From IMG/VR virus record IMGVR_UViG_3300048919_000048, positions 87,944 to 151,943 of that record: DNA of 64,000 nucleotides. One strand, 5' to 3'. A program made the position numbers and the translations under genes. This stretch comes from a virus. The notes beneath the pieces are model-generated. The model saw nothing but the letters and a program-made list of their open reading frames with translations. It had not been told where the DNA came from and searched no databases. Positions 14,802 to 63,885 of the stretch are shown in pieces. The first letter of the stretch is position 1; each line of letters starts with the position of its first letter.

Positions 14802-14802
14802 A

Positions 14803-14898
14803 AAATAATCAGGGACTTGCGTTACTCCAGTATCGGAATCCACATTGAGTACGCCTACTCAACCCTACTCACATTCAACCGGAGCCTGATTATCTATT
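14803..14898. other. Unassigned 96-base spacer in the tRNA cluster
   Basis: This spacer between the Phe and Ser tRNAs shows no complete cloverleaf, open frame with a ribosome site, or terminator. It may hold processing sequence or a decayed tRNA. Confidence 0.4.
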
Positions 14899-14985
14899 TG
14901 GCAGAAGAGGAGAGACTTGAACTCTCAGGCCCCTAGGGACCCCGGATTAGCAGTCCGGTGCGGCTACCAATTTCGCCACTCTTCT
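14899..14985 (-). tRNA. tRNA-Ser(GCT)
   Basis: A class II tRNA of 87 bases with acceptor AGAAGAG/CTCTTCT, anticodon stem CCGGA/TCCGG, loop CTGCTAA, a long variable arm and discriminator G before CCA. It reads AGC/AGU serine codons. Confidence 0.95.
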
Positions 14986-14989
14986 AAAT

Positions 14990-15082
14990 TGGCGGAAGAT
15001 AATAGAGTCGAACTATCACCGTGGGGTCGCCACAGCGGGCCGGGGTTCAAATCCGGGTGCGTACCACTACGCCCTATCTTCC
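14990..15082 (-). tRNA. tRNA-Ser(TGA), with A-C mismatch in the anticodon stem
   Basis: A 93-base class II tRNA. The acceptor GGAAGAT/ATCTTCC is perfect, the variable arm is long and discriminator G fits serine. The loop TTTGAAC gives anticodon TGA, but the closing 31-39 pair is A-C and position 38 is C, so decoding quality is uncertain. Confidence 0.8.
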
Positions 15083-15083
15083 A

Positions 15084-15746
15084 TTATTTGATAGAAATCC
15101 AAGCCGTTTTAGTGTTTGTCGGGTAGGTTGAATTTCTGAAAAGTGTAAGAGGTGCTGCGCCAGCTCCACCTTGTGCGTTAACAAAGGCTGAAAGTTGGGC
15201 ATCACTGACGGGCTGGAAAAACACTTCAACTCCGTCCAAGGAAAGATGGATTCCATCGCTTCCCATATAATAAGAGATAAGATGCCAACCCGTCTTTACG
15301 TTTTCCGTCCCGGACATCGGGTTTGCTTGACCATTCCAGCCATAGAAGCAAACCCTTAATTGATCACTTACCAACTTTAGCCCGAAAGACCAATAGTTTA
15401 TACCGGAATTCTGAACCATGAATCCGATCAGGGTGGGGTGGATCTGGTTAGGATAAACATCATTCACCCTATCAACATAAACCATGGCGTCTACCCTTGC
15501 CCCTCTTCGAAAGGCAGATAAGTTTGACCCGTAGTTGTACGAGATGTATCCGTTATTTGATTGAATAACATCGTTACCACCAAACAATGTCTTTGTTACA
15601 CCAGAATAACCTGTTGGAGACCTATTACCAGACAAATCGGGATTCATGCCATTCTGAGCCGAGGCCAAGAACAAGCAAGTCGATGGATCTGGCGGTGGAA
15701 GATACACGCCCGCCGGGCGACCACCAACCATTAGAATTTCGTTCAT
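15084..15746 (-). CDS. Lectin-like (LamG/concanavalin-fold) protein gene inside the tRNA cluster
   Basis: The frame is open further upstream across a tRNA, but the ATG at 15746 has a GAGGTG site and gives 220 residues starting MNEILMVGGRP. After a short proline-rich entry the protein is beta-strand-rich. It has the spacing of a LamG/concanavalin-like jelly roll: VDAMVYVDRVNDVY, then TLIGFMVQNSG, then YWSFGLKLVSDQLRVCFYG, then GWHLISYYMGSDGIHLSLDG. Such domains bind sugars or mediate adhesion and are common in phage fibres. There is no signal peptide. It lies between Ser and His tRNA genes in the same direction, so it would be cut out of the tRNA transcript. A virion accessory role is inferred. 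Confidence 0.7.
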   Translation of the reverse strand: MNEILMVGGRPAGVYLPPPDPSTCLFLASAQNGMNPDLSGNRSPTGYSGVTKTLFGGNDVIQSNNGYISYNYGSNLSAFRRGARVDAMVYVDRVNDVYPNQIHPTLIGFMVQNSGINYWSFGLKLVSDQLRVCFYGWNGQANPMSGTENVKTGWHLISYYMGSDGIHLSLDGVEVFFQPVSDAQLSAFVNAQGGAGAAPLTLFRNSTYPTNTKTAWISIK

Positions 15747-15759
15747 ACACACCTCGAAT

Positions 15760-15835
15760 TGGGGTGACCTGTGGGACTTGAACCCACGACTGCCCGGTTC
15801 ACAACCGGGGATTCTACCTGCTGAATTAAGGCCAC
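15760..15835 (-). tRNA. tRNA-His(GTG)
   Basis: Acceptor GTGGCCT/AGGTCAC, loop TTGTGAA in stem CCCGG/CCGGG, discriminator C and CCA are present. The usual G at position -1 is not encoded (the base is T), which would require later addition or unusual processing. Confidence 0.93.
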
Positions 15836-15906
15836 ATTTCAGTGCTCTCCTGTTGAAGCCATCACAGCGTTGCTGATCCATCATTCAACCCAAAAGCACT
15901 CAAAAA

Positions 15907-15982
15907 TGGCGGGGGATGGAGGATTCGAACCTCGCGTTAGCGGGATCAAAACCCGCTGTTTTGCCAATTAAACTAATCCCCT
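15907..15982 (-). tRNA. tRNA-Gln(TTG)
   Basis: Anticodon stem GCGGG/CCCGC with loop TTTTGAT. The first acceptor pair is A-C, in line with the weak 1-72 pair usual for glutamine tRNAs. Discriminator G and CCA are encoded. Confidence 0.93.
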
Positions 15983-16022
15983 ACGCTGGGTGAGATAACC
16001 CGATCACCACGGGCAATAAAAT

Positions 16023-16096
16023 TGGAGCGGACATCCGGGATCGAACCGGACTCATTAGCTTGGAAGGCTAAGGCACAACCACTATACCATGCCCGC
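16023..16096 (-). tRNA. tRNA-Gly(TCC)
   Basis: A compact 74-base tRNA with acceptor GCGGGCA/TGTCCGC, anticodon stem TTAGC/GCTAA, loop CTTCCAA, discriminator T and CCA. It reads GGA/GGG. Confidence 0.95.
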
Positions 16097-16102
16097 TTTA
16101 TG

Positions 16103-16180
16103 TGGTACTCCAGGAGAGATTCGAACTCATCACTGACATGATCCTAAATCAAGTGCCTCTACCAATTGGGCTACTGGAGC
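16103..16180 (-). tRNA. tRNA-Leu(TAG) with short variable arm
   Basis: Acceptor GCTCCAG/CTGGAGT, D stem GCC/GGC, loop TTTAGGA and discriminator A fit leucine. However, the variable region is only about six bases (TCAGTG), whereas leucine tRNAs normally carry a long extra arm. The T stem has two mismatches. Confidence 0.8.
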
Positions 16181-16185
16181 GAAGA

Positions 16186-16260
16186 TGGATGCGGGGGTCG
16201 GATTCGAACCGACGACATGAGGCGTATGAGACCTCCGCGCTACCGCTGGGCCACCCCGCA
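16186..16260 (-). tRNA. tRNA-Met(CAT), initiator-like in places
   Basis: The loop CTCATAC gives anticodon CAT. The body TGCGGGG-TG and T arm GTCGG/CCGAC resemble initiator tRNA. However, the 1-72 pair is intact (T-A), the anticodon stem lacks three G-C pairs, and discriminator is T. Elongator Met or an Ile tRNA with modified CAT cannot be excluded. Confidence 0.85.
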
Positions 16261-16266
16261 ATAATT

Positions 16267-16343
16267 TGGTCGGTGTACGAGGACTCGAACCTCGGACCTA
16301 ATGCTCCCAAAGCAATCGCTCTACCAAACTGAGCTACACACCG
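16267..16343 (-). tRNA. tRNA-Pro(TGG)
   Basis: Acceptor CGGTGTG/TACACCG, loop TTTGGGA, discriminator A and CCA. One T-T mismatch in the anticodon stem, as in the Phe tRNA of the cluster. Confidence 0.93.
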
Positions 16344-16347
16344 TGTA

Positions 16348-16423
16348 TGGTTGGAGATGGTGGTTTCGAACCACCGACCTGACCCTTATCAAGAGCCTGC
16401 TCTACCAACTGAGCTAATCCCCA
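16348..16423 (-). tRNA. tRNA-Ile(GAT)
   Basis: Acceptor TGGGGAT/ATCTCCA, D arm GCTC/GAGC, loop TTGATAA, discriminator A and CCA. Two G-T pairs lie in the anticodon stem. Confidence 0.93.
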
Positions 16424-16427
16424 AAAG

Positions 16428-16503
16428 TGGCGGTCCTAACGGGATTCGAACCCGCGACTCTCCCGTGACAGGGGAGTATGTTTACCGCTAATACCATAGG
16501 ACC
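16428..16503 (-). tRNA. tRNA-Asp(GTC)
   Basis: Acceptor GGTCCTA/TAGGACC, anticodon stem CTCCC/GGGAG with loop CTGTCA plus C, discriminator G and CCA, as expected for Asp. Confidence 0.93.
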
Positions 16504-16509
16504 TGAATT

Positions 16510-16616
16510 TGGTTTTGAGATGAGAGTCCGAGTCTTGTACAGCCTTACCCGTTGTCAATTGGCAGCTATCGCGCGATTCGCACTTCCGACACGGGATTTA
16601 ACTGTTACACCTCAAA
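16510..16616 (-). other. Unresolved tRNA-like segment
   Basis: This 107-base stretch begins TTTGAGGT and ends ATCTCAAA-A-CCA on the minus strand, so its ends can form an 8 bp acceptor-like stem with a CCA tail. It is packed two bases from tRNA-Trp and six from tRNA-Asp. A normal D, anticodon and T arm could not be assigned. It may be a decayed, interrupted or unusual tRNA. Confidence 0.35.
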
Positions 16617-16618
16617 GA

Positions 16619-16700
16619 TGGCAGGAAGGTGAGGAGTCGAACCCCCGGAGCCGGGGTTGGAACCCGGTGGAGTTCCACAACCCCATTAATCTACCAACCT
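16619..16700 (-). tRNA. tRNA-Trp(CCA), with poor acceptor pairing
   Basis: Anticodon stem CCGGG/CCCGG and loop TTCCAAC give anticodon CCA, with discriminator G. The acceptor AGGTTGG/CCTTCCT carries two T-T mismatches and the D loop is enlarged (82 bases in total), so this may be degenerate or strongly modified. Confidence 0.75.
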
Positions 16701-16706
16701 AAAAAC

Positions 16707-16784
16707 TGGTACACCCAACGGGACTCGAACCCGTATTTGCCGACGTGAAAGGTCGGTGTCCTATTCCAATTAGACGATAGGTGC
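16707..16784 (-). tRNA. tRNA-Glu(TTC)
   Basis: Acceptor GCACCTA/TGGGTGT with wobble pairs, anticodon stem CCGAC/GTCGG, loop CTTTCAC and CCA. Discriminator is A rather than the usual G. Confidence 0.92.
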
Positions 16785-16834
16785 TTTTAACGAATAGCCA
16801 TCGAAATGACTATTGATTAATTACACATATTGTT

Positions 16835-16910
16835 TGGCTGACGGTACTGGATTCGAACCAGTTATCCTGGGCTTAACAGGCCCCCGCATGTCCATATATG
16901 CTCACCGTCA
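16835..16910 (-). tRNA. tRNA-Asn(GTT)
   Basis: Perfect acceptor TGACGGT/ACCGTCA, D stem GCAT/ATGC, loop CTGTTAA, discriminator G and CCA. Confidence 0.95.
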
Positions 16911-17077
16911 ATAATAGGGTGCGCCCCTTCCGGTGTGATTACGCAGTTATCGTCGAGGGAACTCGTAAACAGGGACCTTCAGTTGGACGACTTGCGGTTA
17001 GCTAATCCGCTTCCTTTCTTTACCGTGGGCCGCAGGGAATGCAAGCATTTTACCTGAAGATATTTCCACGGTTTACC
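16911..17077. other. Unassigned 167-base spacer in the tRNA cluster
   Basis: No coding frame with a ribosome site is seen. A 7 bp stem ACCGTGG (17022-17028) with CCACGGT (17066-17072) encloses a 37-base loop, and a GCGG-loop-CCGC hairpin lies near 17000. No complete cloverleaf or CCA end could be placed. It may be a processing spacer, a decayed tRNA or a small structured RNA. Confidence 0.4.
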
Positions 17078-17154
17078 TGGTGGACCGTCAGGGACTCGAA
17101 CCCCGAACCTCGGGATTAAAAGTCCCTTGCTCTAACCAATTGAGCTAACGATCC
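17078..17154 (-). tRNA. tRNA-Lys(TTT)
   Basis: Acceptor GGATCGT/ACGGTCC with one wobble, D arm GCTC/GAGC, loop CTTTTAA, discriminator A and CCA. Confidence 0.95.
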
Positions 17155-17158
17155 GATC

Positions 17159-17253
17159 TGGCAGTAGGAGGGAGATTTGAACTCCCGGGACCAGGGGCTA
17201 CCTGATCCGACACCTTTCCAAGATGCTGCTTTAAGCCACTCAGCCATCCTACT
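17159..17253 (-). tRNA. tRNA-Ser(GGA)
   Basis: A 95-base class II tRNA with acceptor AGTAGGA/TCCTACT, loop TTGGAAA, a long variable arm, discriminator G and CCA. It is the third serine tRNA of the cluster. Confidence 0.94.
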
Positions 17254-17259
17254 AAAATT

Positions 17260-17347
17260 TGGTGGGGAGTGATGGAGTCGAACCACCCGAGTCGCAATGA
17301 CAACAGATTTACAGTCTGCACCGCTACCTCTACGGAAATAACTCCCC
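17260..17347 (-). tRNA. tRNA-Tyr(GTA)
   Basis: Acceptor GGGGAGT/ACTCCCC, anticodon stem GCAGA/TCTGT with loop CTGTAAA, an extended variable arm as usual for bacterial Tyr, discriminator A and CCA. Confidence 0.94.
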
Positions 17348-17489
17348 GAAATTCTCTTTTGTTCGGCTCACCTGATATCCATGAGGCTGCGCTACCTCAT
17401 ATAGACCTTATTCGCTGGACCGCCCCGTTGTACACCGTGACTATCTTGCGAGTTCGTTAACAGATGCCCGACAGAAGAGAACTTTAATA
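17348..17489. other. Non-coding spacer between tRNA-Tyr and the AT-hook gene terminator
   Basis: Only a short hairpin (TGAGG/CCTCA, near 17379-17399) stands out. No tRNA, promoter box pair or credible frame was found. Confidence 0.4.
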
Positions 17490-17510
17490 AAGGCCCCTAA
17501 TGAGGGCCTT
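17490..17510 (-). terminator. Terminator after the AT-hook protein gene
   Basis: AAGGCCC and GGGCCTT form a 7 bp stem with a seven-base loop followed by a T-rich stretch on the minus strand. It may be read through to reach the downstream tRNAs, or those have another source. Confidence 0.75.
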
Positions 17511-17514
17511 TCAA

Positions 17515-17889
17515 TTACTCATCTTCCCCTACCACTTTATACTCACGAATTTCGGTTGTCAATGGCATAACCGCTTTTAGTTCATCAGATGAACCTGAGT
17601 GAGTCTGGGAGGAGGCAGATGTTGTGCCGCCTGCTGCGTCGTCTTCGTTATCCTCTTCAGTGTAGAGGTTGTTAACCTCTTTCGCCTGCTCAAGGATATA
17701 CTTCGCCGTCGTTTCTTTCACCTTCTCTGTGCCGGAGGTCAGAAGACCTTCGAGAGTGGAGATAGCTTTCGGCGTCAGACGGGCTAATTCGCCTCGGAGA
17801 TTAATCATTGCCTTTTCAAGGGCAATGGCTGTACTCTCCTCTTTGCTTGGGCGACCACGCTTACGAGTTACAATCGCAGCCTTGCTCAT
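17515..17889 (-). CDS. AT-hook-containing small protein, possible DNA-binding or small terminase-like role
   Basis: A 124-residue protein. The N-terminus carries the AT-hook-like core KRGRPSK (residues about 10-16), which binds the minor groove of AT-rich DNA in other proteins. Residues about 20-75 form two helices with EKAMINLRGELARL and KYILEQAKEVNNLY. The remainder is an acidic Ser/Thr-rich tail. It has its own promoter (TTGACA, 17 bases, TAAGAT) and terminator, and splits the tRNA cluster into two groups. A small-terminase role is possible because no other candidate was found near the large terminase, but nothing in the sequence proves it. A regulator or nucleoid-type protein is the alternative. 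Confidence 0.6.
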   Translation of the reverse strand: MSKAAIVTRKRGRPSKEESTAIALEKAMINLRGELARLTPKAISTLEGLLTSGTEKVKETTAKYILEQAKEVNNLYTEEDNEDDAAGGTTSASSQTHSGSSDELKAVMPLTTEIREYKVVGEDE

Positions 17890-17915
17890 AATGCCCCCAT
17901 TGAGTTAGTGTATTC

Positions 17916-17944
17916 ATCTTAGCAGTATAATTACACTATGTCAA
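17916..17944 (-). promoter_or_regulatory. Strong promoter for the AT-hook gene
   Basis: Minus-strand TTGACA is followed after 17 bases by TAAGAT, upstream of the ATG at 17889. The -35 box is perfect. Confidence 0.75.
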
Positions 17945-17960
17945 TAGGTTACATGAAAAT

Positions 17961-18083
17961 TGGCAGCGACTCCAGGATTCGAACCCGAACAGCCCGGCGA
18001 TCAACCCGGGAGCGAAGTACCCTATTGGATAGATGGTCTACTCATGCCTGAGCGATTCCCATTTCTCCTCAACCTCAGTCGCC
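17961..18083 (-). tRNA. Atypical 123-base tRNA-like gene, anticodon loop of eight bases
   Basis: The ends form a 7 bp acceptor GGCGACT/AGTCGCT (one G-U) with discriminator G and CCA. The T arm TCGGG/CCTGG with loop TTCGAAT and a D-like stem GGTT/AATC are recognisable. The anticodon stem CCCGG/CCGGG is perfect but encloses an eight-base loop, GTTGATCG. About 45 extra bases, themselves able to form small hairpins, separate the D stem from the anticodon stem. It is packed six bases from the next tRNA. It may be an interrupted tRNA or a decoding oddity; Ile(GAT) is the nearest normal reading. Confidence 0.5.
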
Positions 18084-18089
18084 AATGTG

Positions 18090-18169
18090 TGGTGCCCCTC
18101 CCCGGAGTCGAACCGGGAACTCCTGCCGTTTGAAAGCAGAGCCTCTACCTTTTGTTGGGCCAGAGGGGC
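18090..18169 (-). tRNA. tRNA-Leu(CAA) with short variable arm
   Basis: Acceptor GCCCCTC/GAGGGGC, loop TTCAAAC in stem CTGCT/GGCAG, discriminator A and CCA. The variable region is only about five bases before the T stem CCCGG/CCGGG, again lacking the long arm expected of leucine tRNAs. Confidence 0.85.
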
Positions 18170-18170
18170 T

Positions 18171-18247
18171 TGGAGCAACGTACTGGATTCGAACCAGTGA
18201 ACACCTCGTTTGCAGCGAGAGCCGTTACCAGACTCCGGCAACGTTGC
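18171..18247 (-). tRNA. tRNA-Cys(GCA)
   Basis: Perfect acceptor GCAACGT/ACGTTGC, stem TCTCG/CGAGG with loop CTGCAAA, and discriminator T, the main cysteine identity element. CCA is encoded. Confidence 0.95.
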
Positions 18248-18253
18248 ATGATC

Positions 18254-18329
18254 TGGTGCTGGATGCAGGGGTCGAACCCGCGACCTTCTGATTACAAATC
18301 AGTTGCTCTACCAACTGAGCTAATCCAGC
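18254..18329 (-). tRNA. tRNA-Thr(TGT)
   Basis: Acceptor GCTGGAT/ATCCAGC, D arm GCTC/GAGC, loop TTTGTAA, discriminator A and CCA. It is the first tRNA transcribed in the cluster. Confidence 0.95.
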
Positions 18330-53019: not shown

Positions 53020-53414
53020 AAGTATCCGAACTGATATCTGAGTTGCAGAAATGCAACCCGGAAGACAAAGTGGCGGTGCAGATCGACAAAGGCTTCGTGA
53101 CGATCGGCGGTACACCACGTGTCGGGGTAGAGTCTGCCCACAACGGGTTCGACTGGGACCACGGGACTGTCTTCTTGAAGCTGGAAGGCGGAAAAATGTT
53201 GACAGACATTTCTCGTGAAGAGTATACTGAGCATATCCGATACAAACAGTTGGTCAGCGGCCTTCGTGGCAAGCAGGACATTGAGCATTTGTCGAATATT
53301 TTCGTGAAAAAGGACTTCGTGATCAATCGACTTCTGCGACTGGTCAACGTCGAAGAACTTGAACCGTTCGAGGTCTCAGACCTCATTACTGATATTAGAG
53401 AGGAGCGTTTATAA
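53016..53414 (+). CDS. Protein of unknown function (132 residues), GTG start
   Basis: GTG 53016 overlaps the previous stop (GTGA). The product begins MKVSELISELQKCNPEDKV, a helix-strand opening found in a group of small phage proteins, then VAVQIDKGFVTIGG. It continues with a helical C-terminus (NRLLRLVNVEELEPFEV). No function is recognised. Confidence 0.6.
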   Translation: MKVSELISELQKCNPEDKVAVQIDKGFVTIGGTPRVGVESAHNGFDWDHGTVFLKLEGGKMLTDISREEYTEHIRYKQLVSGLRGKQDIEHLSNIFVKKDFVINRLLRLVNVEELEPFEVSDLITDIREERL

Positions 53415-53803
53415 TGTTGGCACCAATGTGGCAGTATTTCACGATGATGATCATGTTCTCCCTGGCCTTTGTCTTAAATATTATCGGGGTGGCGGCGGTT
53501 GTCTTTGCAGACCGTAAAATAATGACCAGTGGGAATTACGACACGGCGTTCGGCCTGTTCTTCCGTGTTGTTGTGTCAGGCATTATGATGTACGCTTCCT
53601 ACTCCCTGTTCCAGTGGTACACCGGACCTCTTGGCTTAGGAATTTTGTTGGTACACTGGGCATCGGTCATCTCAACCTTCCTGTACTCCCTGAGCATTTC
53701 AGGCCGTAAGGTAGAGTACACCTTAGGGAAGGCACTTTGGGGCGCTCTGTACACAGGCGGCATGGTGATCTCGTTGATCGTGTATGGCCTGTCATGTCTT
53801 TAA
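53414..53803 (+). CDS. Four-span membrane protein
   Basis: A 129-residue protein with spans at about 6-30, 46-66, 70-92 and 104-126 (LGKALWGALYTGGMVISLIVYG). It starts at a TAATG overlap. Its size and number of spans do not match a known family by eye. It might alter the host membrane or act in superinfection exclusion; this is conjecture. Confidence 0.65.
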   Translation: MLAPMWQYFTMMIMFSLAFVLNIIGVAAVVFADRKIMTSGNYDTAFGLFFRVVVSGIMMYASYSLFQWYTGPLGLGILLVHWASVISTFLYSLSISGRKVEYTLGKALWGALYTGGMVISLIVYGLSCL

Positions 53804-54024: not shown

Positions 54025-55015
54025 CGATACCGATATCCGTGGCATCATCGTGGCCCGCCCGGGAGTAATCCGGGCACCGTTCCGAACCCTGCGTGAGATG
54101 GGGATTGAGGACGAGGAGGACGGCAAGGTTTACGAACTGAACAACTTCATGGAATTGTTCTGCGACATGAACCCGAACATCATCGAACTGGGATTCACCG
54201 ATGACCAGGCGACGCTGTATAAGCACCCGGCTTGGGACTATTTAAGGTCCTTCCTGCCACAACTGCTTAACAAGAACGTTGCGTTCCGTTTCGGCGGCTA
54301 TGCCATGGCGCAGTTGAAACGCATCAAAGGCCACAACAAGCATATCAACAACCCTATGCCGGAGGCCAAGCCTACCCAACTGGAGTTTTTCCGCTTGGTG
54401 CAGAGCTATCTCGACGTGAAGGTGTTTAAGCATGAAGACTTTATGCGTAAACTGAACAACATGGAAGGCATTTGCACCTTGGTGCCGTTCGGTGCGGATA
54501 TCTACGGCGTTGTACCGGACCACCGTGAAAATGTTGGCCCGATGTTCAACCCGGATGGCTCGATCCGTAAGTTGCAGTACGACGAGATCCCGGAGTCTGT
54601 GAAAAAGCAGCCTCCTTTGTTCATCGTTAAGTATCTGAGGCAGGATCACATGGTTGCCAAGGATAAGCACCACAACTACTGGCAGTGGGTGAAGAACCGT
54701 AACGCCGCCCGGCACGAACTGGAAGAGAAGTTCGGTTACGACACCAAACATGCCATGCACTTGGTGCGACTGCTACGAATGGGGGAGGAAATCCTGGAGA
54801 CCGGGCAGGTTATCGTCCGCCGACCTGACGCAGATGAACTGCTCGGCATCCGCAACGGGACCCACAGCTACGATGATATCGTGGAATGGGCGTCCGACAA
54901 GGACAAACTGATCCGTGACGTTCTCTACCGCGAGAGTAAGTTGCCGAAGAACAGCAACAAGCGATTGGCGGAAGAACTGATCCTCAACGTCCAGGATGCC
55001 GCATGGGAAAAATGA
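53891..55015 (+). CDS. RlaP-type predicted nucleotidyltransferase
   Basis: The product is 374 residues from the ATG at 53891 with GGAGG seven bases upstream. The polymerase-beta-type core is at LAGSHAYGTATPTSDTDIRG (Gly34-Ser35, Asp46, Asp48). It has the length and long helical C-terminus of the RlaP (PF10127) family, which is found next to RNA ligases and thought to act in RNA repair. In this genome it sits three membrane genes downstream of the CCA enzyme. No RNA ligase gene is in the window. Its substrate is unknown. Confidence 0.8.
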   Translation: MENTIVASGRVKSIVEKLESHKDVSKVLMLCLAGSHAYGTATPTSDTDIRGIIVARPGVIRAPFRTLREMGIEDEEDGKVYELNNFMELFCDMNPNIIELGFTDDQATLYKHPAWDYLRSFLPQLLNKNVAFRFGGYAMAQLKRIKGHNKHINNPMPEAKPTQLEFFRLVQSYLDVKVFKHEDFMRKLNNMEGICTLVPFGADIYGVVPDHRENVGPMFNPDGSIRKLQYDEIPESVKKQPPLFIVKYLRQDHMVAKDKHHNYWQWVKNRNAARHELEEKFGYDTKHAMHLVRLLRMGEEILETGQVIVRRPDADELLGIRNGTHSYDDIVEWASDKDKLIRDVLYRESKLPKNSNKRLAEELILNVQDAAWEK

Positions 55016-55503
55016 CGAACGGAAGAATGGCATATCTTCTGTCTGTCGATACACACCGGGCCAAAAGCCCGGTTATCTCTTGGATAGAAGAAAACATCCG
55101 GACAGGGAAGGCTAACCCGGATTACGGGACGGCGTGTGCAGAAGTTATTCAAGAAGTTACTATCCGTTTGGTTGAAAACGTGGACTACGAGGTTGAAGAC
55201 GGAAAGGTGATCAGTGTCATCACGGGCTGGAAGTCAACACCTTATTTTGAGAACCCGTCAAAACCAACTAAACAAGAGATTGACTTGCTGGAAATATGCG
55301 AGCATAATCATTTTATCTGGCTGAGAGGCATGTGCTTTGAGATCCTCGATATGCTGGACCACCCTCACTCATGTTCCATTGACTATCACATTATGGAAGA
55401 GGAGTGCAGCGGACCCGGGTGTGAGAGAACAGGGCCAGTAAACTACCACGGGGGTAGAAGCTGGCAATATTATTGTGGTGGCGGGCCGCGCTGCTGCCCA
55501 TAG
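55012..55503 (+). CDS. Cysteine-rich protein of unknown function (163 residues)
   Basis: The ATG at 55012 overlaps the previous stop (ATGA); another ATG at 55003 adds three residues. The product is helical in the middle (KQEIDLLEICEHNHFIWL) and ends in a cysteine cluster: EEECSGPGCERTG, then YYCGGGPRCCP. These six cysteines may bind zinc. No family is recognised. Confidence 0.6.
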   Translation: MTNGRMAYLLSVDTHRAKSPVISWIEENIRTGKANPDYGTACAEVIQEVTIRLVENVDYEVEDGKVISVITGWKSTPYFENPSKPTKQEIDLLEICEHNHFIWLRGMCFEILDMLDHPHSCSIDYHIMEEECSGPGCERTGPVNYHGGRSWQYYCGGGPRCCP

Positions 55504-56699: not shown

Positions 56700-56775
56700 G
56701 ATTTTGTTGTGTAAAATGACAACACGCCCTCTTTGTCAATAGTTTTCTGTTGTATTTTTGCATAACATGGTAAAA
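56700..56775 (+). promoter_or_regulatory. Control region with two TAAAAT boxes before the paralogue array
   Basis: TAAAAT occurs at 56712 inside an inverted repeat GTTGT/ACAAC (56706-56723), and again near 56769 with TTGTAT 15 bases upstream. The region is AT-rich, gene-free, and lies between a terminator and the gene at 56810. The TAAAAT boxes are like those of the left-arm promoters, so this array may be expressed with the virion genes. Confidence 0.45.
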
Positions 56776-56809
56776 TGGTTGTGCGGAATCTTACAACGGG
56801 AGGAAGGCT

Positions 56810-57253: not shown

Positions 57254-57267
57254 TCGGGTCGATCGTC

Positions 57268-57291
57268 GAAAGGCGGTCGGCCTTTCTTTTT
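57268..57291 (+). terminator. Terminator before the paralogue array
   Basis: GAAAGGC/GCCTTTC with a five-base loop is followed by TTTTT, then a GGAGG site for the next gene. Confidence 0.85.
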
Positions 57292-57300
57292 GGAGGTAAT

Positions 57301-57708
57301 ATGAACGCAGGGTTGACCATAAAGGGGACGGTTGCAAGCGTACATGGCCTGCCATGCCCTCCCCAGGCAGTATGCGCTGGCGATACATATATCGTGGGTT
57401 CTGACCTCTATGCCTGGGACGGTCGTCAATGGAACTGGGTGGGTCCAATATCTGGCCCAACAGGTGGTTGGTCGGCGATGAAACAATACACCTTGACCTA
57501 CAACGGCGTTTCTGCAACAATTTGGTCGTCGAACGAAATAACATCCCTGTTCTTTGACCCAGAGAACCTTGATATGGATGATTTGGCGATATTTGAGACG
57601 ACGTACCCTGAAGATTACAAAGCCTTCGAGGCGGAATGGTCGGAGAACAGAGCAAGACAATTGGCATCTGATGAACTGAACGTGTGGAGAGACAAATATG
57701 TCAAGTAG
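57301..57708 (+). CDS. Array member 1: fibre-like beta module plus shared C-terminal domain
   Basis: A 135-residue protein. Residues about 7-55 resemble the beta module of the giant fibre (IKGTV, LPCPPQAV, AGDTYIV, LYAWDGRQWNWVG, SGPTG). Residues about 62-135 hold the domain shared along the array: strands TLTYNGVSATIW, a FFDPENLDMDDL turn, the signature FETTYPEDY, and a helix with EAEWSEN and ELNVW. No enzyme motif is seen. The match of its first half to a virion fibre suggests a structural or assembly role. GGAGG sets the start. Confidence 0.65.
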   Translation: MNAGLTIKGTVASVHGLPCPPQAVCAGDTYIVGSDLYAWDGRQWNWVGPISGPTGGWSAMKQYTLTYNGVSATIWSSNEITSLFFDPENLDMDDLAIFETTYPEDYKAFEAEWSENRARQLASDELNVWRDKYVK

Positions 57709-58225
57709 AACAAGATACAATTTTAACCCAGACCATCTCCCGATTGGTTTGAGGTATCTCGGAGAGGTGCAGTCAGTAACAAATCTCCCAAATGATCCTA
57801 TGGTCGGTGACGTTGTGTATGCAAGGGACCAGCAAAGAGCTTTTGCTTGGGTGGGTGTAAACTGGTCAAACTTGGTATTGAGGCATTCCAGCCCTCAAAT
57901 ATCGCACGGTCTTGGTGGAGAGATACAGTGTATTCAACCGCCCCCTGTGTATGTTACCGATGGGCTTATGACCCATCAGAACAAATTGACTTACCGGGGG
58001 ATATCGTTTACCATCGAGTCTGAACACAACATAGCCGAGATGTTTTTGCAACAGCATAATCTAACCAAGCAAGACATGGGCATGTTCAAGATGATGTACC
58101 CTGAGGAATTCAAACAGTTCCGAGAGGGGTGGGCACACAGATGGGCGATCGAAAGAGCCAAAGAAGAATTTGACGAATGGGAGTTAGACTACTATGAGAA
58201 AAAGCCAAGAAGAGATTACCCGTGA
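57698..58225 (+). CDS. Array member 2: fibre-like module plus shared C-terminal domain
   Basis: A 175-residue protein that overlaps member 1 by eleven bases. Its first part (LGEVQSVTNLPNDP, VGDVVYARD, FAWVGVNWSNL) again resembles the fibre module. The second part has LTYRGISFTIES, AEMFLQQHNLTKQDMGMF, the signature KMMYPEEFKQF and a Trp-rich helix GWAHRWAIERAKEEF. It is among the best preserved array members and shows the pattern most clearly. Confidence 0.65.
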   Translation: MSSRTRYNFNPDHLPIGLRYLGEVQSVTNLPNDPMVGDVVYARDQQRAFAWVGVNWSNLVLRHSSPQISHGLGGEIQCIQPPPVYVTDGLMTHQNKLTYRGISFTIESEHNIAEMFLQQHNLTKQDMGMFKMMYPEEFKQFREGWAHRWAIERAKEEFDEWELDYYEKKPRRDYP

Positions 58226-58700
58226 GGTGTTTGGACAAGGTTCCCGCTGGATCGGCTGGAACCATTGGCTAACTCATCAGCTTGTTTTCAAATATATTTG
58301 GAACAAGGTTGAGCAAGGAACGATCCTTGGTAGCCGGGCATCCTTTTACCTCAGAACCAGGACGGAGTCTAACTGGGCCACCAAAGATATGATAAAAGTC
58401 AATATCGACAACCAAACTGGAGACCTGTCAAGTGTCGAGATCCCCGGTGGGGACGGAAAATCACGGCTAACGGTAATGGCAAACTGCTCTGTATGGTTAG
58501 ACTCTGACGGGGTATCGGTAACCCTATCGGAGATGTTCGAGGACCCATGGCGACCAACGTTCGAAGAGTTGGATCTTTTCCAAGTTTTGTACGGCGATGA
58601 GCAGATCCTTATTGATATCAACCGTGAATTTTTCGGAATCACCAGGAAGTTTGATAAGGCGGTTGGGAATATGACGATCAGCACGTTCTACCCTAAATAA
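58194..58700 (+). CDS. Array member 3: diverged N-terminus, recognisable C-terminal pattern
   Basis: A 168-residue protein overlapping member 2 by 32 bases. The first 100 residues (GQGSRWIGWNHWLTHQ, KYIWNKVEQG) are unlike the others. The end shows the array pattern in weaker form: GVSVTLSEMFEDPWRPTFEELDLFQVLYGDE and a helix DINREFFGITRKF. The function is unknown. Confidence 0.6.
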   Translation: MRKSQEEITREVFGQGSRWIGWNHWLTHQLVFKYIWNKVEQGTILGSRASFYLRTRTESNWATKDMIKVNIDNQTGDLSSVEIPGGDGKSRLTVMANCSVWLDSDGVSVTLSEMFEDPWRPTFEELDLFQVLYGDEQILIDINREFFGITRKFDKAVGNMTISTFYPK

Positions 58701-58708
58701 TTGGAGGT

Positions 58709-59182
58709 TTGATGAGCGAAATCAAAGATGTAATAGAGAGGTTGGCTAAAGACTGGAGTTGGGACTCGGTGATTAATCACCCTACCCGCCGCCATATCAT
58801 TACCACACTGGAGGGAAAACTCCGGGGATTGGGCATTGAGGTCCCTACCGGGCCGAATACCCACCGTGAGTTCACCATGCGTCACGAAAAGAAAAATGGG
58901 GACCTCCGCCTGTGGACCAAGAGCATGAGTGGACTGCTCCAGTGGAGAACCGACCCAGAGAAGGGTGATCGCCTTGTGTATCACCCATTTGGACGTGGCG
59001 GCACAGAGCGCCTGAAGATCGAGGAGATCTTCATGGACACCCACGATGTGGATGAGGGAGAAGTGGCCCTGTTCGAGATGCTGTACTCAGATCTTTCACC
59101 GATGGTGCCATTGTTTGCGGGCGCTCTCGACGAAGCTGACCGTTTATTGAAGGAGAAATATGGTGATCCAAAAGCAAATTGA
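58709..59182 (+). CDS. Array member 4: shared C-terminal domain, helical N-terminus
   Basis: The product is 157 residues from ATG 58709, or 156 from the next ATG at 58712; TGGAGG is upstream. The N-terminus is helical (SEIKDVIERLAKDW, RRHIITTLEGKLRG). The C-terminal part shows LKIEEIFMDTHDVDEGEVALFEMLYSDL and a helix ALDEADRLLKEKY, the array pattern without the proline-glutamate pair. It overlaps the next gene by 23 bases. Confidence 0.6.
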   Translation: MMSEIKDVIERLAKDWSWDSVINHPTRRHIITTLEGKLRGLGIEVPTGPNTHREFTMRHEKKNGDLRLWTKSMSGLLQWRTDPEKGDRLVYHPFGRGGTERLKIEEIFMDTHDVDEGEVALFEMLYSDLSPMVPLFAGALDEADRLLKEKYGDPKAN

Positions 59183-59576
59183 GTCTATGCAGAGGGCCGA
59201 GCAAATTCGGGCGCAACTTATGGCAAATATGTTTAGTGCAGACAGTGGCGTAATGGGGGTTAATGGTATGATGGGACCGGGGCCGGGACCTCAAGGTCCG
59301 AGGGGAGAACCAGGGACTCCGGGTATTGAAAGGGAAAAATACATCCTTCGCTATGCTGGCCTGCCCTTCGAAATCTGGCTGAAGCCTGGTACTTTTGCCA
59401 TGATCGAAGACGCGACCGAGGTTAACGGCGATGACCTTGAATTCATCAAGATGATGGATAAGGATGAATGGGAGAAGATCCGCGAGACGTGGTGTTTAGA
59501 ATGGCATAAGCGCCGGGGGCACCGGGCTTTTGAGGCGGGCCTCTACGAAGAGTTTGAAGCAGGGGTGGTATTATGA
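59160..59576 (+). CDS. Array member 5: short collagen segment plus shared domain
   Basis: A 138-residue protein. A helical start (QKQIESMQRAEQIRAQL) leads to a Gly-X-Y run (GPGPGPQGPRGEPGTPG, about 40-56), then LRYAGLPFEIWL, FAMIEDATEVNGDDLEFI, the signature KMMDKDEWEKIRETW and a helix CLEWHKRRGHRAFEAG. Collagen next to the shared domain ties the array to fibre proteins. GAAGG-type site; the start overlaps member 4. The start codon reads ATG within AAATATGG. Confidence 0.65.
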   Translation: MVIQKQIESMQRAEQIRAQLMANMFSADSGVMGVNGMMGPGPGPQGPRGEPGTPGIEREKYILRYAGLPFEIWLKPGTFAMIEDATEVNGDDLEFIKMMDKDEWEKIRETWCLEWHKRRGHRAFEAGLYEEFEAGVVL

Positions 59577-60019
59577 CAGAAAAGACATACCAGCAGGTTT
59601 TTAGCAGCAGCAACCTGTATGACTCTGGAACAGGATCGGGTCAGATAGACCCCTCTTGGCTGACTGGTCCGTCTATGAACACTGATTTCTCCCGCTGGGA
59701 GGAGGCCAAAAGGGAACTCCAGCGCAAGAGATTGGCGGATATCCTCAACAGCAACCCACCTTGGAAAGGTGCGGGCATGATCGCCGAGACTGATGACAAG
59801 CCAAAGTCACGTACCCGGACATTGAAGTTCAAAGATGTCACTTTTGTGGTGAGTCTTTTCGACGCAACCATGGAATTTTTCGAGGACGAAAGGATGATAA
59901 CTCAAGATGAGTTACGCCTTGTGCGGGTAACTTACCCCGAGGAGTACGAGAAGATAAGGAAGTCTTGGACTCATGCATGGAGAGAACTAAAAGCGATCGA
60001 AGCTTTCGAAAGTGATTGA
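59573..60019 (+). CDS. Array member 6: shared C-terminal domain with YPEE signature
   Basis: A 148-residue protein overlapping member 5 by four bases. The N-terminus is low-complexity (SSSNLYDSGTGSGQ), then a charged helix EEAKRELQRKRLADIL. The end is close to the consensus: LKFKDVTFVVSLFDATMEFFEDERMITQDELRLV, RVTYPEEYEKIRKSW and HAWRELKAIEAFES. Its TGA stop lies inside the -35 box of the next promoter. Confidence 0.65.
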   Translation: MTEKTYQQVFSSSNLYDSGTGSGQIDPSWLTGPSMNTDFSRWEEAKRELQRKRLADILNSNPPWKGAGMIAETDDKPKSRTRTLKFKDVTFVVSLFDATMEFFEDERMITQDELRLVRVTYPEEYEKIRKSWTHAWRELKAIEAFESD

Positions 60020-60043
60020 CATCCACATCTGGTCCTGTATGAT
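60016..60043 (+). promoter_or_regulatory. Promoter with inverted repeat around -10
   Basis: TTGACA-16-TATGAT is bracketed by GGTCC (60031) and GGACC (60044). It lies 30 bases before a small two-span membrane protein. Confidence 0.8.
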
Positions 60044-60072
60044 GGACCCATCAAACAACGAGGAGAGTAAAA

Positions 60073-60246
60073 ATGAGTAAAGTTACCATCGGCGAGAAAG
60101 CAGTGATTATCGGCACGTTATCCTTGATCGGGGGCTGTGTCGCTGTACTGGCGGACAAAGGCACCACAGGTGCGGCGATTATCGGTGTAATCTCCGGCAT
60201 TATCGGTGCGGGTGTGATTGGACTGTTGCACAAGGTGCGTAGCTGA
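60073..60246 (+). CDS. Small two-span membrane protein, holin candidate
   Basis: ATG 60073 with AGGAG upstream opens 57 residues with two hydrophobic spans, about 9-26 (AVIIGTLSLIGGCVAVLA) and 31-52 (TGAAIIGVISGIIGAGVIG), joined by a short charged turn (DKG), and a basic end HKVRS. This is the form of small class II holins. It has its own strong promoter, which would fit a timed lysis gene, and there is no holin next to the endolysin. The role is inferred from form alone; a membrane modifier is the alternative. Confidence 0.6.
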   Translation: MSKVTIGEKAVIIGTLSLIGGCVAVLADKGTTGAAIIGVISGIIGAGVIGLLHKVRS

Positions 60247-60545
60247 TGGGAAAATACACAAGATACTCTTCGCTTTTGGTTCATGCGATGTCTCCTGAAC
60301 TCCGAGAAAAATTCTTTTTGGATGGCGAGCAGGATACCGACGCCGGGTGGGATCTTTTCGAGACCTTGTACCCAGAGGAGGCAGATATTCTCATGGAGGT
60401 TCTGCAACCAAAACTGGATGAAATCATAAAAGACTTACAGTTCCGCCGGGATTACAATACACTTCTTGGCGAAGGTAAACAAACAGAGGCCACCCGGTTG
60501 CTAATCTGCCACCGGGCAGACAAACTTAACTGGGATAAGGACTAA
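60246..60545 (+). CDS. Array member 7: short form of the shared domain
   Basis: A 99-residue protein starting MGKYTRYSSLLVHAMSPEL at an overlap with the small membrane gene. It keeps the core FFLDGEQDTDAGWDLFETLYPEEADIL and a helix LQPKLDEIIKDLQFRRDYN, but has no N-terminal module. The YPEE signature is intact. It ends just before the next gene. It appears to be a minimal member of the array. Confidence 0.6.
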   Translation: MGKYTRYSSLLVHAMSPELREKFFLDGEQDTDAGWDLFETLYPEEADILMEVLQPKLDEIIKDLQFRRDYNTLLGEGKQTEATRLLICHRADKLNWDKD

Positions 60546-60548
60546 ATC

Positions 60549-60809
60549 ATGCTTCAAATGAACAAAGAGGTTACTATCGAGGCACTGACGGATGCGGCGG
60601 GATACACCCCGGGCCGGATGTTACTGGTATTTGCAAACAGTCACCATCATGCCGTCGGCGGATGGAAAGATTTCTTAGGTGTGGCTCTCTCCGTGGATAG
60701 CGCCAAGGAATTGATCCACAATTCAGGGATCACCTACGGTGATTACCAAGTTGTTGACTACAAAAGCCTTTCTGTAGTGGCAGAAGGCTCTTTTGGGAGC
60801 TTAAACTGA
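60549..60809 (+). CDS. Small protein of unknown function (86 residues)
   Basis: The product starts MLQMNKEVTIEALTDAAGY and mixes strands (RMLLVFANSHHHAVGG) with a helix SVDSAKELIHNSG. It has a histidine run HHH. It does not match the array domain. It overlaps the next gene by one base. No family is recognised. Confidence 0.6.
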   Translation: MLQMNKEVTIEALTDAAGYTPGRMLLVFANSHHHAVGGWKDFLGVALSVDSAKELIHNSGITYGDYQVVDYKSLSVVAEGSFGSLN

Positions 60810-61093
60810 TGCGGTCACGTTTCGGAAGTGTTGTATACATGGCAGTTGTTGGCGGACAAGCCTCCAACTGCGGTTTTGCCCGGAACTGTAAGAGCATGAT
60901 CCTGACCGCCTTTCCGGGTATGCCCCGGGAAGTTTTTGACCGGGAAGACATCAAAAAGATGATGTTTGAGGTTGACAACGTGTCGGGCGCTCTGTATGTT
61001 ATTGAGCCAGTGGAGGGTAATCCTCTTATCATGAACTCAACCCTTGAGGGTTTGCAGAAGGAGTATGACGAATGGTTGGACCGTACATCGTAG
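60809..61093 (+). CDS. Small protein of unknown function (94 residues)
   Basis: The product starts MRSRFGSVVYMAVVGGQAS and has two cysteines (NCGFARNC), a helix REVFDREDIKKMMFEV and a C-terminal acidic helix. The ATG overlaps the previous stop. It overlaps the 30-residue membrane peptide by 22 bases. No family is recognised. Confidence 0.6.
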   Translation: MRSRFGSVVYMAVVGGQASNCGFARNCKSMILTAFPGMPREVFDREDIKKMMFEVDNVSGALYVIEPVEGNPLIMNSTLEGLQKEYDEWLDRTS

Positions 61094-61164
61094 CTGCGCT
61101 GTTCTCTGTCATCTGGATCGGGTGCTGCATTTGGATCGGACTTATGCTGGGGAAACGCCGATGA
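61072..61164 (+). CDS. Membrane micropeptide (30 residues)
   Basis: ATG 61072 opens a 30-residue frame with one span (IVAALFSVIWIGCCIWIGLML, about 6-26; shown in full length 21, so only the ends IVAAL and IGLML are diagnostic) and a basic end GKRR. The GGAG site is about ten bases upstream, inside the previous gene. Its stop overlaps the next start, the gene of an exported protein, so the pair is coupled. Confidence 0.5.
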   Translation: MVGPYIVAALFSVIWIGCCIWIGLMLGKRR

Positions 61165-61367
61165 AAAAGGTGCTGATTTTACTGGGACTGTTGGCCTTCG
61201 GGGCCAGTGCCGAGGAAGAGGTGAAGAATTGTACCATCCATGACCATGGCGGCGGGGCGACGATCATCGCCTGCCCGGACTACGTCATCACAAAGACTTC
61301 CGAAAAGACGATGATTTGTCGTCTAATGCAAGGCAGTCCCAATGCCAGTTGCACACAGGTTCCTTAA
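61161..61367 (+). CDS. Small exported protein with signal peptide and disulfide-type cysteines
   Basis: A 68-residue protein. MKKVLILLGLLAFGASA is a signal peptide, cut after ASA at about residue 17. The mature part has four cysteines (VKNCTIHD, IIACPDY, MICRL and NASCTQV) that suggest two disulfide bonds in the periplasm. It is coupled to the membrane micropeptide. Small periplasmic phage proteins include lysis regulators and exclusion proteins. No family is recognised. Confidence 0.65.
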   Translation: MKKVLILLGLLAFGASAEEEVKNCTIHDHGGGATIIACPDYVITKTSEKTMICRLMQGSPNASCTQVP

Positions 61368-61379
61368 AACGCTCTACAA

Positions 61380-61451
61380 CGCGTTCTGAGAGCTTTTAAG
61401 ACGAGGCAAGGTGATTTATCATCTTCTCCCAGAAAACCTCTCAGAAACGCG
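61380..61451 (+). ncRNA. Structured 72-base element in a gene-free gap
   Basis: CGCGTTCTGAGAG at 61380 pairs with CTCTCAGAAACGCG at 61438 with one bulged base. An inner AAGGTGA/TCATCTT hairpin with a TTTA loop lies between. The long stem lacks a T run, so it is not a simple terminator. It could be a small RNA or a regulatory leader of the gene at 61503. No known RNA family was recognised. Confidence 0.5.
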
Positions 61452-61463
61452 CTGGTGAATCCT

Positions 61464-61479
61464 GACGGGCATTCCCGTC
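61464..61479 (+). promoter_or_regulatory. Leader hairpin before the 110-residue gene
   Basis: GACGGG/CCCGTC with a CATT loop lies 24 bases upstream of the ATG at 61503. It follows the larger stem at 61380, so the leader carries two consecutive hairpins. Confidence 0.5.
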
Positions 61480-61502
61480 TCAAACTTTATCGGAGAACTC
61501 AA

Positions 61503-61835
61503 ATGAAAGTACAAGGTGCCCTTTGGAAGCAATTTTATAACGACGAAGAATACTGGAAAGGTTATTATCACGATGACACCGTTGTGACATTTGATGGTGT
61601 TGAGCAGGAAGATTATGACAACCCGTCTGACGACGCTGTTGTTAACATCGAATCTGGCTATGTGTACAAGGAAGGTGATGAGTACCACTCCCGGGATGTG
61701 ACACTGGTAACGTTCTTCCGTCGATGGAAGAAGATTCAAACCACAACCGTGATCGTAGTTACCGTGGACAAGGACTACGCCGAATCTGTCCGCGACGAGA
61801 TTGATCGTCTCGATGGCGTCAAGGCGGTGAAATAA
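61503..61835 (+). CDS. Protein of unknown function (110 residues)
   Basis: The ATG at 61503 with GGAGAA upstream gives MKVQGALWKQFYNDEEYW. It is acidic and aromatic at the start (YWKGYYHDDTVVTFDG), then has strands VTLVTFFRRWKKIQTTTVIVV and a C-terminal helix DYAESVRDEID. No family is recognised. The preceding hairpins suggest post-transcriptional control. Confidence 0.65.
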   Translation: MKVQGALWKQFYNDEEYWKGYYHDDTVVTFDGVEQEDYDNPSDDAVVNIESGYVYKEGDEYHSRDVTLVTFFRRWKKIQTTTVIVVTVDKDYAESVRDEIDRLDGVKAVK

Positions 61836-62035
61836 TGGCAACATTGATGGCAATATTTATGTGGGTGTTCGGGGTAATATTCCCGGTCGTAGGCCTGGTA
61901 TATGTCCTGTACTGGTGCATGGAAATGGCAAGCCATGTGATCAAAGGTCTGCTGGGCCTGTTCGCATACTTACTTGTGGGCCTGCCAATCTACTACACGG
62001 TGATGTTTTTCATCGGGAAGATTATCTTTGGCTAA
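61835..62035 (+). CDS. Small two-span membrane protein (66 residues)
   Basis: The product has spans at about 5-30 (AIFMWVFGVIFPVVGLVYVL) and 38-63, nearly all hydrophobic, with a short polar link (MEMASHVIKG). It starts at an overlap with the previous stop. It is another possible holin-type protein by size, though its charge pattern is poor. Its end overlaps the next gene by eight bases. Confidence 0.6.
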   Translation: MATLMAIFMWVFGVIFPVVGLVYVLYWCMEMASHVIKGLLGLFAYLLVGLPIYYTVMFFIGKIIFG

Positions 62036-62534
62036 GTTCGATCTTTGTGAGGGATTAGAGGATCTTCTTCGTCGGGCCGGGTATAAAGTGCCCGCCGGGG
62101 AGATATTTTCTTACATCCGCACTATAGCAGCGGCGGAAATTTGCAACACACCCGGGCCACCAGGGCCACCTGGACCTATGGGTCCGGTAGGCGCACCAGG
62201 GGAACCCGGACCTGCTGGTCAGGATGCGTGGGACAAGTACCGATGGGATTCCAAGACGGAGACCATGTTCACATCCAGTTGGAAGGGGATTGAGTTTACA
62301 TTTCCCCTGCCGACTTGTTTTGTTGAAGGATTCCCCGAGGGTGAACTAAGCTACGGGGATATAAACTACATCCGCACCATCTATGGCAATATGGTGGTGG
62401 AAACCATGGCAGTCTTCTGGCGCAGAGCCTACGATTACCATACGGATATGCAACTTTTCATCAACGAGGAGGACTCATGTCGTTTGCAGAGTATCAACCA
62501 ATCAAATTCGTTTCCGGACCCTTTGAAGGACTGA
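62028..62534 (+). CDS. Array member 8: collagen segment plus diverged shared domain, TTG start
   Basis: TTG 62028 with GGGAAG upstream gives 168 residues. A helical start (CEGLEDLLRRAGYKVPAG) precedes a Gly-X-Y run (GPPGPPGPMGPVGAPG, about 43-66). Then come SSWKGIEFTFPLP, CFVEGFPEGELSYGDINYIRTIYG and a helix VFWRRAYDYHTDM, which follow the array pattern with IYGN in place of YPEE. It is the second member with collagen. Its 3' end overlaps the KOW-like gene by 58 bases. Confidence 0.6.
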   Translation: MAKFDLCEGLEDLLRRAGYKVPAGEIFSYIRTIAAAEICNTPGPPGPPGPMGPVGAPGEPGPAGQDAWDKYRWDSKTETMFTSSWKGIEFTFPLPTCFVEGFPEGELSYGDINYIRTIYGNMVVETMAVFWRRAYDYHTDMQLFINEEDSCRLQSINQSNSFPDPLKD

Positions 62535-62698: not shown

Positions 62699-63859
62699 AT
62701 GTTCGAAATGATGACTGCTATGGGGAAGCCACCACTCCCGGCGGGAAACATAAAAAAGTTCAGTACAGGCGCAAATGCCATTGTGGCCCTTTCAAAGAGC
62801 GGTAATCTGTACTCCATCGGGGACTCGTGGTTCAGTGGAACTGGCGGAACTACAACCGTTTGGACCCTGGTGGGATCGGGTGTTGAAGAATTTTGGACCG
62901 GATACCGACAACTTCTCGTTAAGATGGTTGATGGACGATGGATGTTCATGGGGTCTAACCGCCAATTCCCGCTTACCATTGGGACAAGTCCCACAACCCT
63001 GCAAGATGTAACTGCCTATATGCAATACACGGCGGGGCTTAGCATTAAGCAGGTTGTTGTCGGGAACTATTCCCTGGCAGTTGTGTTCACCAATGGTCAG
63101 TATGCCATGTGTGGTGCCAATTCCAACGGTGGCCTGGGGCTTGGTAACCAGACGGCTGTCCGTGGCCTGACAATGAGAACAGACTTCACTAACGTCAAGA
63201 AAATTGATTTTGAGTGGGCACTTCCTGATACGTCATACATGCTACTGAATGACGGAAGGGTGTTTGCAGCAGGGGATTCTTCAACAGGCTGCGCCGGAGT
63301 GGCAAGCGGGAACGTCTTGACATGGACCCAACAGGCTGTCGCTGTTTCTGGGTCACCTTGCATCGACATCGTTGCCGGGGCTAGCGGATGGTTTCGTGTC
63401 GTAGAGACACCGTCAGACTATAGGATATTTGGGCAGGGTCGCCAGTTCGATGGTTCCTTGGGGACCGGACAAACAAGTTCGACAAACATGACAACCCCGA
63501 CGTTGTCATACACTGTCACAAGTAAGTCTGGAGGTCCACCTGTTGTTCAGGTCGGGTTGTATTGTGCAAGGTTTATTCACCCGGTGACTCTCAAAGAGAT
63601 GTACACAGGGACCAACTCTAACTCTCAGCAGGGCGGGGGGTTGGCTTGGGCTTCTCCTGTCAGGTATTCCTTTACAGAGATGCCTGTAACACCTGTGGTT
63701 GGTGATTTCACGAACATGCGGGCAAATTATTCTGGGGCCTACAAGGTCAGTAACAACATCCTGTATGGGGTTGGTGTGAATACCGCTTCCGGCTATCTCC
63801 CGGGGCTTGGTACAAGGGTCTATGAGTTCACGCCTTTAGATACGACACTTATCAATTAA
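62699..63859 (+). CDS. RCC1-like beta-propeller protein
   Basis: A 386-residue protein built of repeats resembling RCC1 blades: NAIVALSKSGNLYSIGDS, YSLAVVFTNGQYAMCGANSNGGLGLGN, SYMLLNDGRVFAAGDSS, SGWFRVVETPSDYRIFGQG and a late YSGAYKVSNNILYGVG. Each gives the strand, D/NG turn and glycine-rich loop of an RCC1 repeat, so a six- or seven-bladed propeller is likely. In phages such propellers may serve as adhesins, tail-tip or host-binding proteins. No signal peptide is present. GGAGGA precedes the ATG. A strong terminator follows. Confidence 0.75.
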   Translation: MFEMMTAMGKPPLPAGNIKKFSTGANAIVALSKSGNLYSIGDSWFSGTGGTTTVWTLVGSGVEEFWTGYRQLLVKMVDGRWMFMGSNRQFPLTIGTSPTTLQDVTAYMQYTAGLSIKQVVVGNYSLAVVFTNGQYAMCGANSNGGLGLGNQTAVRGLTMRTDFTNVKKIDFEWALPDTSYMLLNDGRVFAAGDSSTGCAGVASGNVLTWTQQAVAVSGSPCIDIVAGASGWFRVVETPSDYRIFGQGRQFDGSLGTGQTSSTNMTTPTLSYTVTSKSGGPPVVQVGLYCARFIHPVTLKEMYTGTNSNSQQGGGLAWASPVRYSFTEMPVTPVVGDFTNMRANYSGAYKVSNNILYGVGVNTASGYLPGLGTRVYEFTPLDTTLIN

Positions 63860-63885
63860 CCGCCTTCGGGCGGTTTTTTTTTTAT
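63858..63885 (+). terminator. Terminator after the RCC1-like gene
   Basis: AACCGCC/GGCGGTT with a TTCG loop, followed by ten T residues. Confidence 0.92.

Follow-up and report, generated by a model that had tools for sequence, protein, structure and literature searches.

Small paralogous proteins with a common C-terminal domain and exchangeable heads form a family in Certrevirus, and some members resemble parts of the collagen fibre

A gene array in the genome of a Certrevirus encodes a paralogous family of small proteins that are related through their C-terminal ends and carry different N-terminal heads. There is good support for both the family and its modular organisation, and the heads of several copies suggest that these proteins may act beside the collagen fibre of the phage. 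The array lies in a window of 64,000 nucleotides (the whole stretch of DNA analysed), which corresponds to positions 87,944–151,943 of a circular virus record of 151,943 bases. The last 9 kb of the window are 94% identical to Cronobacter phage CR9 across 80% of their length, and by this comparison the source phage is a Certrevirus (Vequintavirinae), ∼94% identical to CR9 in the array region. The CR9 counterparts of the array, gp206–gp200 and gp194, are all annotated as hypothetical.

All eight open reading frames that a preliminary description had assigned to the array were confirmed, each on the plus strand. Gene A1 (57301–57708; orthologue CR9 gp206) consists of a head with one fibre-repeat unit (57313–57465) and the C-terminal domain (57478–57705), and A2 (57698–58225) of a diverged fibre-repeat head (57758–57874) and the domain at 57971–58222. 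Gene B (58194–58700) has an unrelated head and a C-terminal motif at 58464–58697. The most widespread member, C (58709–59182, probably starting at the ATG at 58712), has a non-fibre alpha/beta head and its motif at 58958–59179. D (59160–59576) carries a short collagen-like run (59247–59330) followed by the domain (59331–59573), and E (59573–60019) a non-fibre head and the domain at 59807–60016. F (60246–60545) is headless, and G (62028–62534) combines a helical start, a collagen-like run (62154–62225), and the domain at 62259–62531. Thus, the heads do differ between copies, being a fibre unit, a collagen run, non-fibre, helical, or missing altogether. Adjacent genes overlap by 4–32 nt or lie 8 nt apart, which agrees with the short overlaps described earlier except before F, where a small ORF with a counterpart in CR3 intervenes.

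An additional motif-level member is encoded at 55003–55503 (plus strand; its CR9 orthologue is annotated from the position of 55027), and two further members lie past the window end, at the record start (L021:553–1041 and L021:1254–1589). The last ∼30 residues of the 55003 product form a Cys-rich tail (CSGPGCERTGPVNYHGGRSWQYYCGGGPRCCP), which is also present in small Serratia-phage ORFs and in Achromobacter phages and looks like a separate metal-binding module. The neighbourhood of the array is metabolic, with nucleotidyltransferase and HisRS-like genes. Terminator-like hairpin sequence is found directly 5′ of A1 (57256–57286, plus strand), where phiTE has an annotated terminator, and a second such hairpin (63858–63875, plus strand) lies 3′ of a gene for an RCC1-like protein (62699–63859, plus strand). 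Elsewhere in the window, 18 tRNA genes are clustered on the minus strand (14726–18329), and a small gene at 53414–53803 shows ∼40% identity to most relatives compared with 85–95% for its neighbours, a possible allele swap.

A profile HMM made from the C termini of A1, A2, D, and E found orthologues of these four genes in the other Certrevirus genomes examined; orthologues of D and E were absent from phiTE and CB7. The remaining array genes scored above ORFs elsewhere in the region and in CR9, so the C-terminal profiles place the array above the in-genome background. All-against-all hhalign of 35 aligned gene families of the region (595 pairs) confined every pair above 14%, apart from orthologue groups entered twice, to eleven families, namely the eight of the array, the 55003 gene, and the CR9 gp192 and gp190 types. 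The top pair of an array with a non-array family reached 13.8%. Once the heads and the bulk of the collagen had been trimmed, the majority of the 55 array pairs aligned in register and exceeded the best (10.6%) of 187 array-versus-other pairs taken as negatives.

These links are graded in strength. The core four (A1, A2, D, and E) align with one another at 96.5–100% (E 1e-10 to 1e-47) and also cross-hit in PHROGs; judged from these alignments, their homology is unequivocal. G aligns with E at 82% with most of its collagen trimmed off, and both profile and predicted fold argue strongly for its place in the domain family. B, C, and F have 25–40 residues in register with their best array partners, at 55–95% probability, and this common motif comprises the FF-x-D turn and a D/E-hhhF helix. 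B pairs with C at 95.4% and with the core families A1/A2 at 85–86%, and F with C, A2, and A1 at 65, 60, and 55%, respectively. The 55003 gene (92.4% with the CR9 gp192 type, 88.4% with B) and the gp192 and gp190 types join the family at motif level as well. The claim that eight genes end in one pattern therefore stands for the core four and G and holds at motif level only for B, C, and F. A ninth copy proposed near 35596 (35581) did not hold up, its best match being 22.5% over 18 columns and all others <10%. In all, the family is real and larger than first described, with three members missed (55003 and the two record-start genes) and one claimed copy failing. For the members linked only by the 25–40 residue motif, convergence is conceivable but unlikely.

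Searches of the array proteins against Pfam, NCBIfam, and PDB sequences matched no family, in keeping with the earlier view of an unrecognised domain. PHROGs splits the array over families 13666, 19834, 21419, 12009, 12686, 15823, 16086, 12113, 12307, and 36514, all of “unknown function,” and no record in the literature searched merges these into one family or names their domain. Scans of viral contigs detected the array in CR3 and phiTE only, and scans of genome contigs returned none. The acidity of the C-terminal domains (net −3 to −10) raised the possibility of DNA mimicry, but several other genes of the phage are equally acidic, and this candidate was rejected.

The AlphaFold2 model of A1 (pLDDT 84.7) comprises a head of four strands and the C-terminal domain, in which two strands (residues 61–67 and 70–76) precede a short helix (92–101) and a long helix (103–133). 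The alignments for structure prediction were shallow (8 and 5 rows). A Foldseek search of this model against the PDB gave no match at E ≤ 0.001. Among viral models, the whole protein or its C-terminal domain matched array proteins of PBES 02, CR8, and phiTE, and the head matched many tail-fibre and collagen proteins. The matched CR8 protein has 152 aa, the length of the E orthologue, and phiTE K9L555 (166 aa), assigned as the G orthologue by length, superimposed on the A1 model with an rmsd of 2.1 Å over 64 columns at 9% identity. The model of C is weak (pLDDT 66). Its helix order, short then long, is that of A1, and it significantly retrieved only its own orthologue and gp192-type proteins, not the core members. 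The fold comparison therefore brings A1 together with E-type and, by length, G-type database models, but because of the low confidence of the C model, a single fold for the whole family cannot be claimed.

The virion collagen fibre of this phage (3495–6776, minus strand; 1093 aa; CR9 counterpart gp8) contains eight repeat units of the A1-head type, and its orthologue CB7_10 is confirmed by MS. A profile built solely from these eight units matched the heads of A1 (E 4.8e-12) and A2 (E 1.2e-4); across 3,288 ORFs, those of almost the entire CR9 genome among them, it matched only the fibre, these two heads, and their orthologues. The link to fibre parts suggested in the preliminary description is thus real. 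Within the array, the repeat unit is restricted to A1 and A2. The A1 head also carries the beginning of a G-X-Y run, and the collagen runs of D and G comprise four or more G-X-Y triplets. No array protein has long collagen or multiple units, the maximum being one unit and ∼9 triplets. As the fibre module is widespread in phage fibres, the A1-type head probably, though not certainly, descends from the collagen fibre of this phage. The collagen runs of D and G presumably imply homotrimers, and the array proteins may be trimeric. The repeat unit (57313–57465; fibre 3495–6776) also resembles one kelch-type propeller blade, with a weak match to designed SAKe propellers.

In a tree of the core domain, A1, A2, D, and E form four old lineages that predate the Certrevirus species split. 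This rules out recent tandem duplication. The earlier reading of one duplicated domain with different heads is supported, the duplications being old. Most relatives carry either A1 or A2 at a single locus; both are retained in the window phage and CR9. Identity to CR3 is 35–62% for A1, A2, D, E, F, and G, compared with 95% for the neighbouring nucleotidyltransferase; C and 55003 are 82 and 91% identical. All array members are under purifying selection, every one having a dN/dS of 0.00–0.18 against CR9, and these values exclude decayed, functionless fragments in the window.

Relatives have broken or lost single copies. A1 of CB7 is interrupted by nonsense codons, E of PcCB7V has a frameshift, and G of DU_PP_I is lost except for its tail. 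In phiTE (L012:6380–7045), a deletion has produced a natural head-to-tail swap, in which the collagen head is D-type (59160 family) and the tail comes from the 60809 family; the same fusion in CB7 is suggested by a gene comparable in length and location. Together, these genomes show single array copies to be naturally dispensable. Septuagintavirus W70 also encodes the C, 55003, B, and gp192 types and a single core copy, with the core-like copy and the B and C orthologues adjacent to one another, and C is found in Serratia and Acinetobacter phages as well. In PBES 02 (L015:6064–7059), the A2 and B orthologues form one 331-aa ORF, which UniProt names “virion structural protein,” by annotation only.

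The 205-base gap before 56810 contains a conserved box, TGGTAAAAT or TGATAAAAT, in 13 relatives aligned. An extended −10-like promoter, ATGGTAAAAT (56767–56776, plus strand), lies upstream of 56810 and the array and is of a type found before virion genes. In CR9, 5 of 33 virion-region genes have [AG]TGNTAANAT in the 90 bases upstream, compared with 2 of 246 others, one of the latter being the array leader. The Fisher value (3e-4) does not count as independent evidence, since the motif was recognised in these sequences and then tested in the genome of its discovery. The RCC1 gene of the window is also preceded by [AG]TGNTAANAT. Candidate extended −10 promoters of the form [AG]TGNTAAAAT are located in the window at 56767, 62668, 890 (minus strand), and 10747 (minus strand) and in CR9 at 3071, 11995, 19132, 22681, and 109577, mostly before virion genes. 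This candidate is distinct from the published early TTGAC-N-TATAAT type and may be the Certrevirus late promoter; we infer late expression of the array.

Published proteomes of purified virions list 26 proteins for CB7 (PMC7344957 Table 4) and 28 for W70 (PMC11370258 Table 2), and no array orthologue is among them. Both phages encode orthologues of 55003, B, C, and the gp192 type; CB7 also encodes the G orthologue, and W70 the core domain and the F type. The lists cover no intact fibre-headed core copy, the CB7 orthologue of A1 being broken and the W70 core head non-fibre. The collagen fibre was detected in both virions (CB7_10, 39 unique peptides, PMC7344957; W70_131, 2032 spectra, PMC11370258), and the two proteins belong to the same PHROG, phrog_3904. 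W70 virions also contain three RCC1 proteins, W70_237–239, whose genes closely follow the array (PMC11370258), and proteins of 14–17 kDa were detected in the published lists (PMC7344957, PMC11370258). Absence from a virion protein list is not proof of absence from the particle; still, the earlier suggestion of accessory virion proteins is unsupported, as encoded array orthologues are missing from both lists. The RCC1-like gene of the window, a homologue of W70_237–239, is missing from the compared stretches of CR9, CR3, and CR8 and present in varying number in KaOmega, F1M1E, POP15, and W70.

Tentatively, we favour the possibility that the array encodes late accessory proteins, probably oligomeric and sharing a docking domain, which would work beside the fibres during assembly and remain unpackaged. 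This reading was judged best because it brings together the heads made of fibre units, the absence from virions, and the type of promoter. On this view, Certrevirus and related Vequintavirinae phages would possess a family of small accessory paralogues. Their C-terminal domain, built of a beta hairpin, an FF-x-D turn, a short helix, and a long helix, would provide a common docking or oligomerisation unit and the exchangeable heads a separate partner for every copy. In A1, A2, D, and G, the heads with fibre units or collagen point to the trimeric collagen fibre as the partner, and from these features we infer fibre binding and a role in assembly. Synthesised late, the proteins would operate alongside the fibre or virion as it assembles or matures, folding, capping, or modifying fibres, and would not be packaged in detectable amounts. 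Fibre binding cannot explain the whole family, since its most conserved and widespread members (C, 55003, B, and the gp192 type) have non-fibre heads. None of the copies broken or lost in CB7, PcCB7V, DU_PP_I, and phiTE can be an essential chaperone, and the presence of a separate tail fibre assembly gene in the genome (CR9 gp28) also counts against a role in fibre assembly.

Because there are conserved members that lack fibre heads and single copies can be dispensed with, another reading follows closely, although we consider it rather unlikely: intracellular adaptors for host takeover or counter-defence, whose C-terminal domain binds one host or phage target, whose heads add specificities, and which merely acquired fibre and collagen pieces as handy oligomerisation heads. 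The absence from both virion lists, the faster divergence of A1, A2, D, E, F, and G relative to the nucleotidyltransferase, and the metabolic neighbourhood fit such adaptors, but the promoter box resembles that of virion genes rather than the early type, and two heads of the phage's own fibre-unit type are left unexplained. Very low-copy or loosely bound virion parts, decorating the collagen fibre or the head and either overlooked or removed when the particles were purified, would fit those heads, the collagen runs, and the RCC1 virion proteins encoded directly downstream, and the MS lists cover no fibre-headed core copy, A1 being broken in CB7 and the W70 core copy having another head. This is nevertheless unlikely, as B, C, 55003, and the gp192 type in both phages, G in CB7, and the core domain in W70 went undetected where 14–17 kDa proteins were seen, and the label of the PBES 02 protein lends no weight. 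Finally, homology might be limited to the core four and G, with the motif of B, C, and F being convergent, as its short span and the failure of the C model to retrieve core members would allow. We regard this as quite improbable, given that the in-register matches far exceed the 187 negative pairs, that all members cluster at one locus, and that W70 too has a core-like copy side by side with B and C orthologues.

Small, non-virion, fibre-related proteins are known as tail fibre assembly chaperones, such as T4 gp38, Tfa, and T4 gp57A. The likeness of the array proteins to these is a functional analogy, with which their absence from virion lists is consistent; unlike gp38 and Tfa, they have no Pfam or NCBIfam match, and several copies are individually dispensable in nature. 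With the collagen fibres of phrog_3904 (CB7_10, W70_131), A1 has one unit in common and D and G short collagen runs, but the array proteins end in a new domain, are encoded far from the virion module, and are not in CB7 or W70 virions. The RCC1-like virion proteins (phrog_4219; W70_237–239) are encoded directly downstream on the same strand with the same promoter-box type; unlike the array, they form a different family (annotated RCC1 repeats) that lacks the array domain and is present in virions. It is distinctly unlikely, though conceivable, that the array represents a hitherto unrecognised class of late “fibre companions,” in which fast-diverging paralogues with a common docking domain and collagen stubs or single units of the phage's own fibre type modify, cap, or diversify the fibre without being packaged.

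Our results unite some ten phage protein families of “unknown function” into one domain family, part of which is thereby connected with the main type of fibre in phages under study for biocontrol. Should the proteins be host-takeover adaptors, these paralogues would lend themselves to the search for a shared host target. If they act on fibres from outside the particle, they would constitute a new layer of fibre control.
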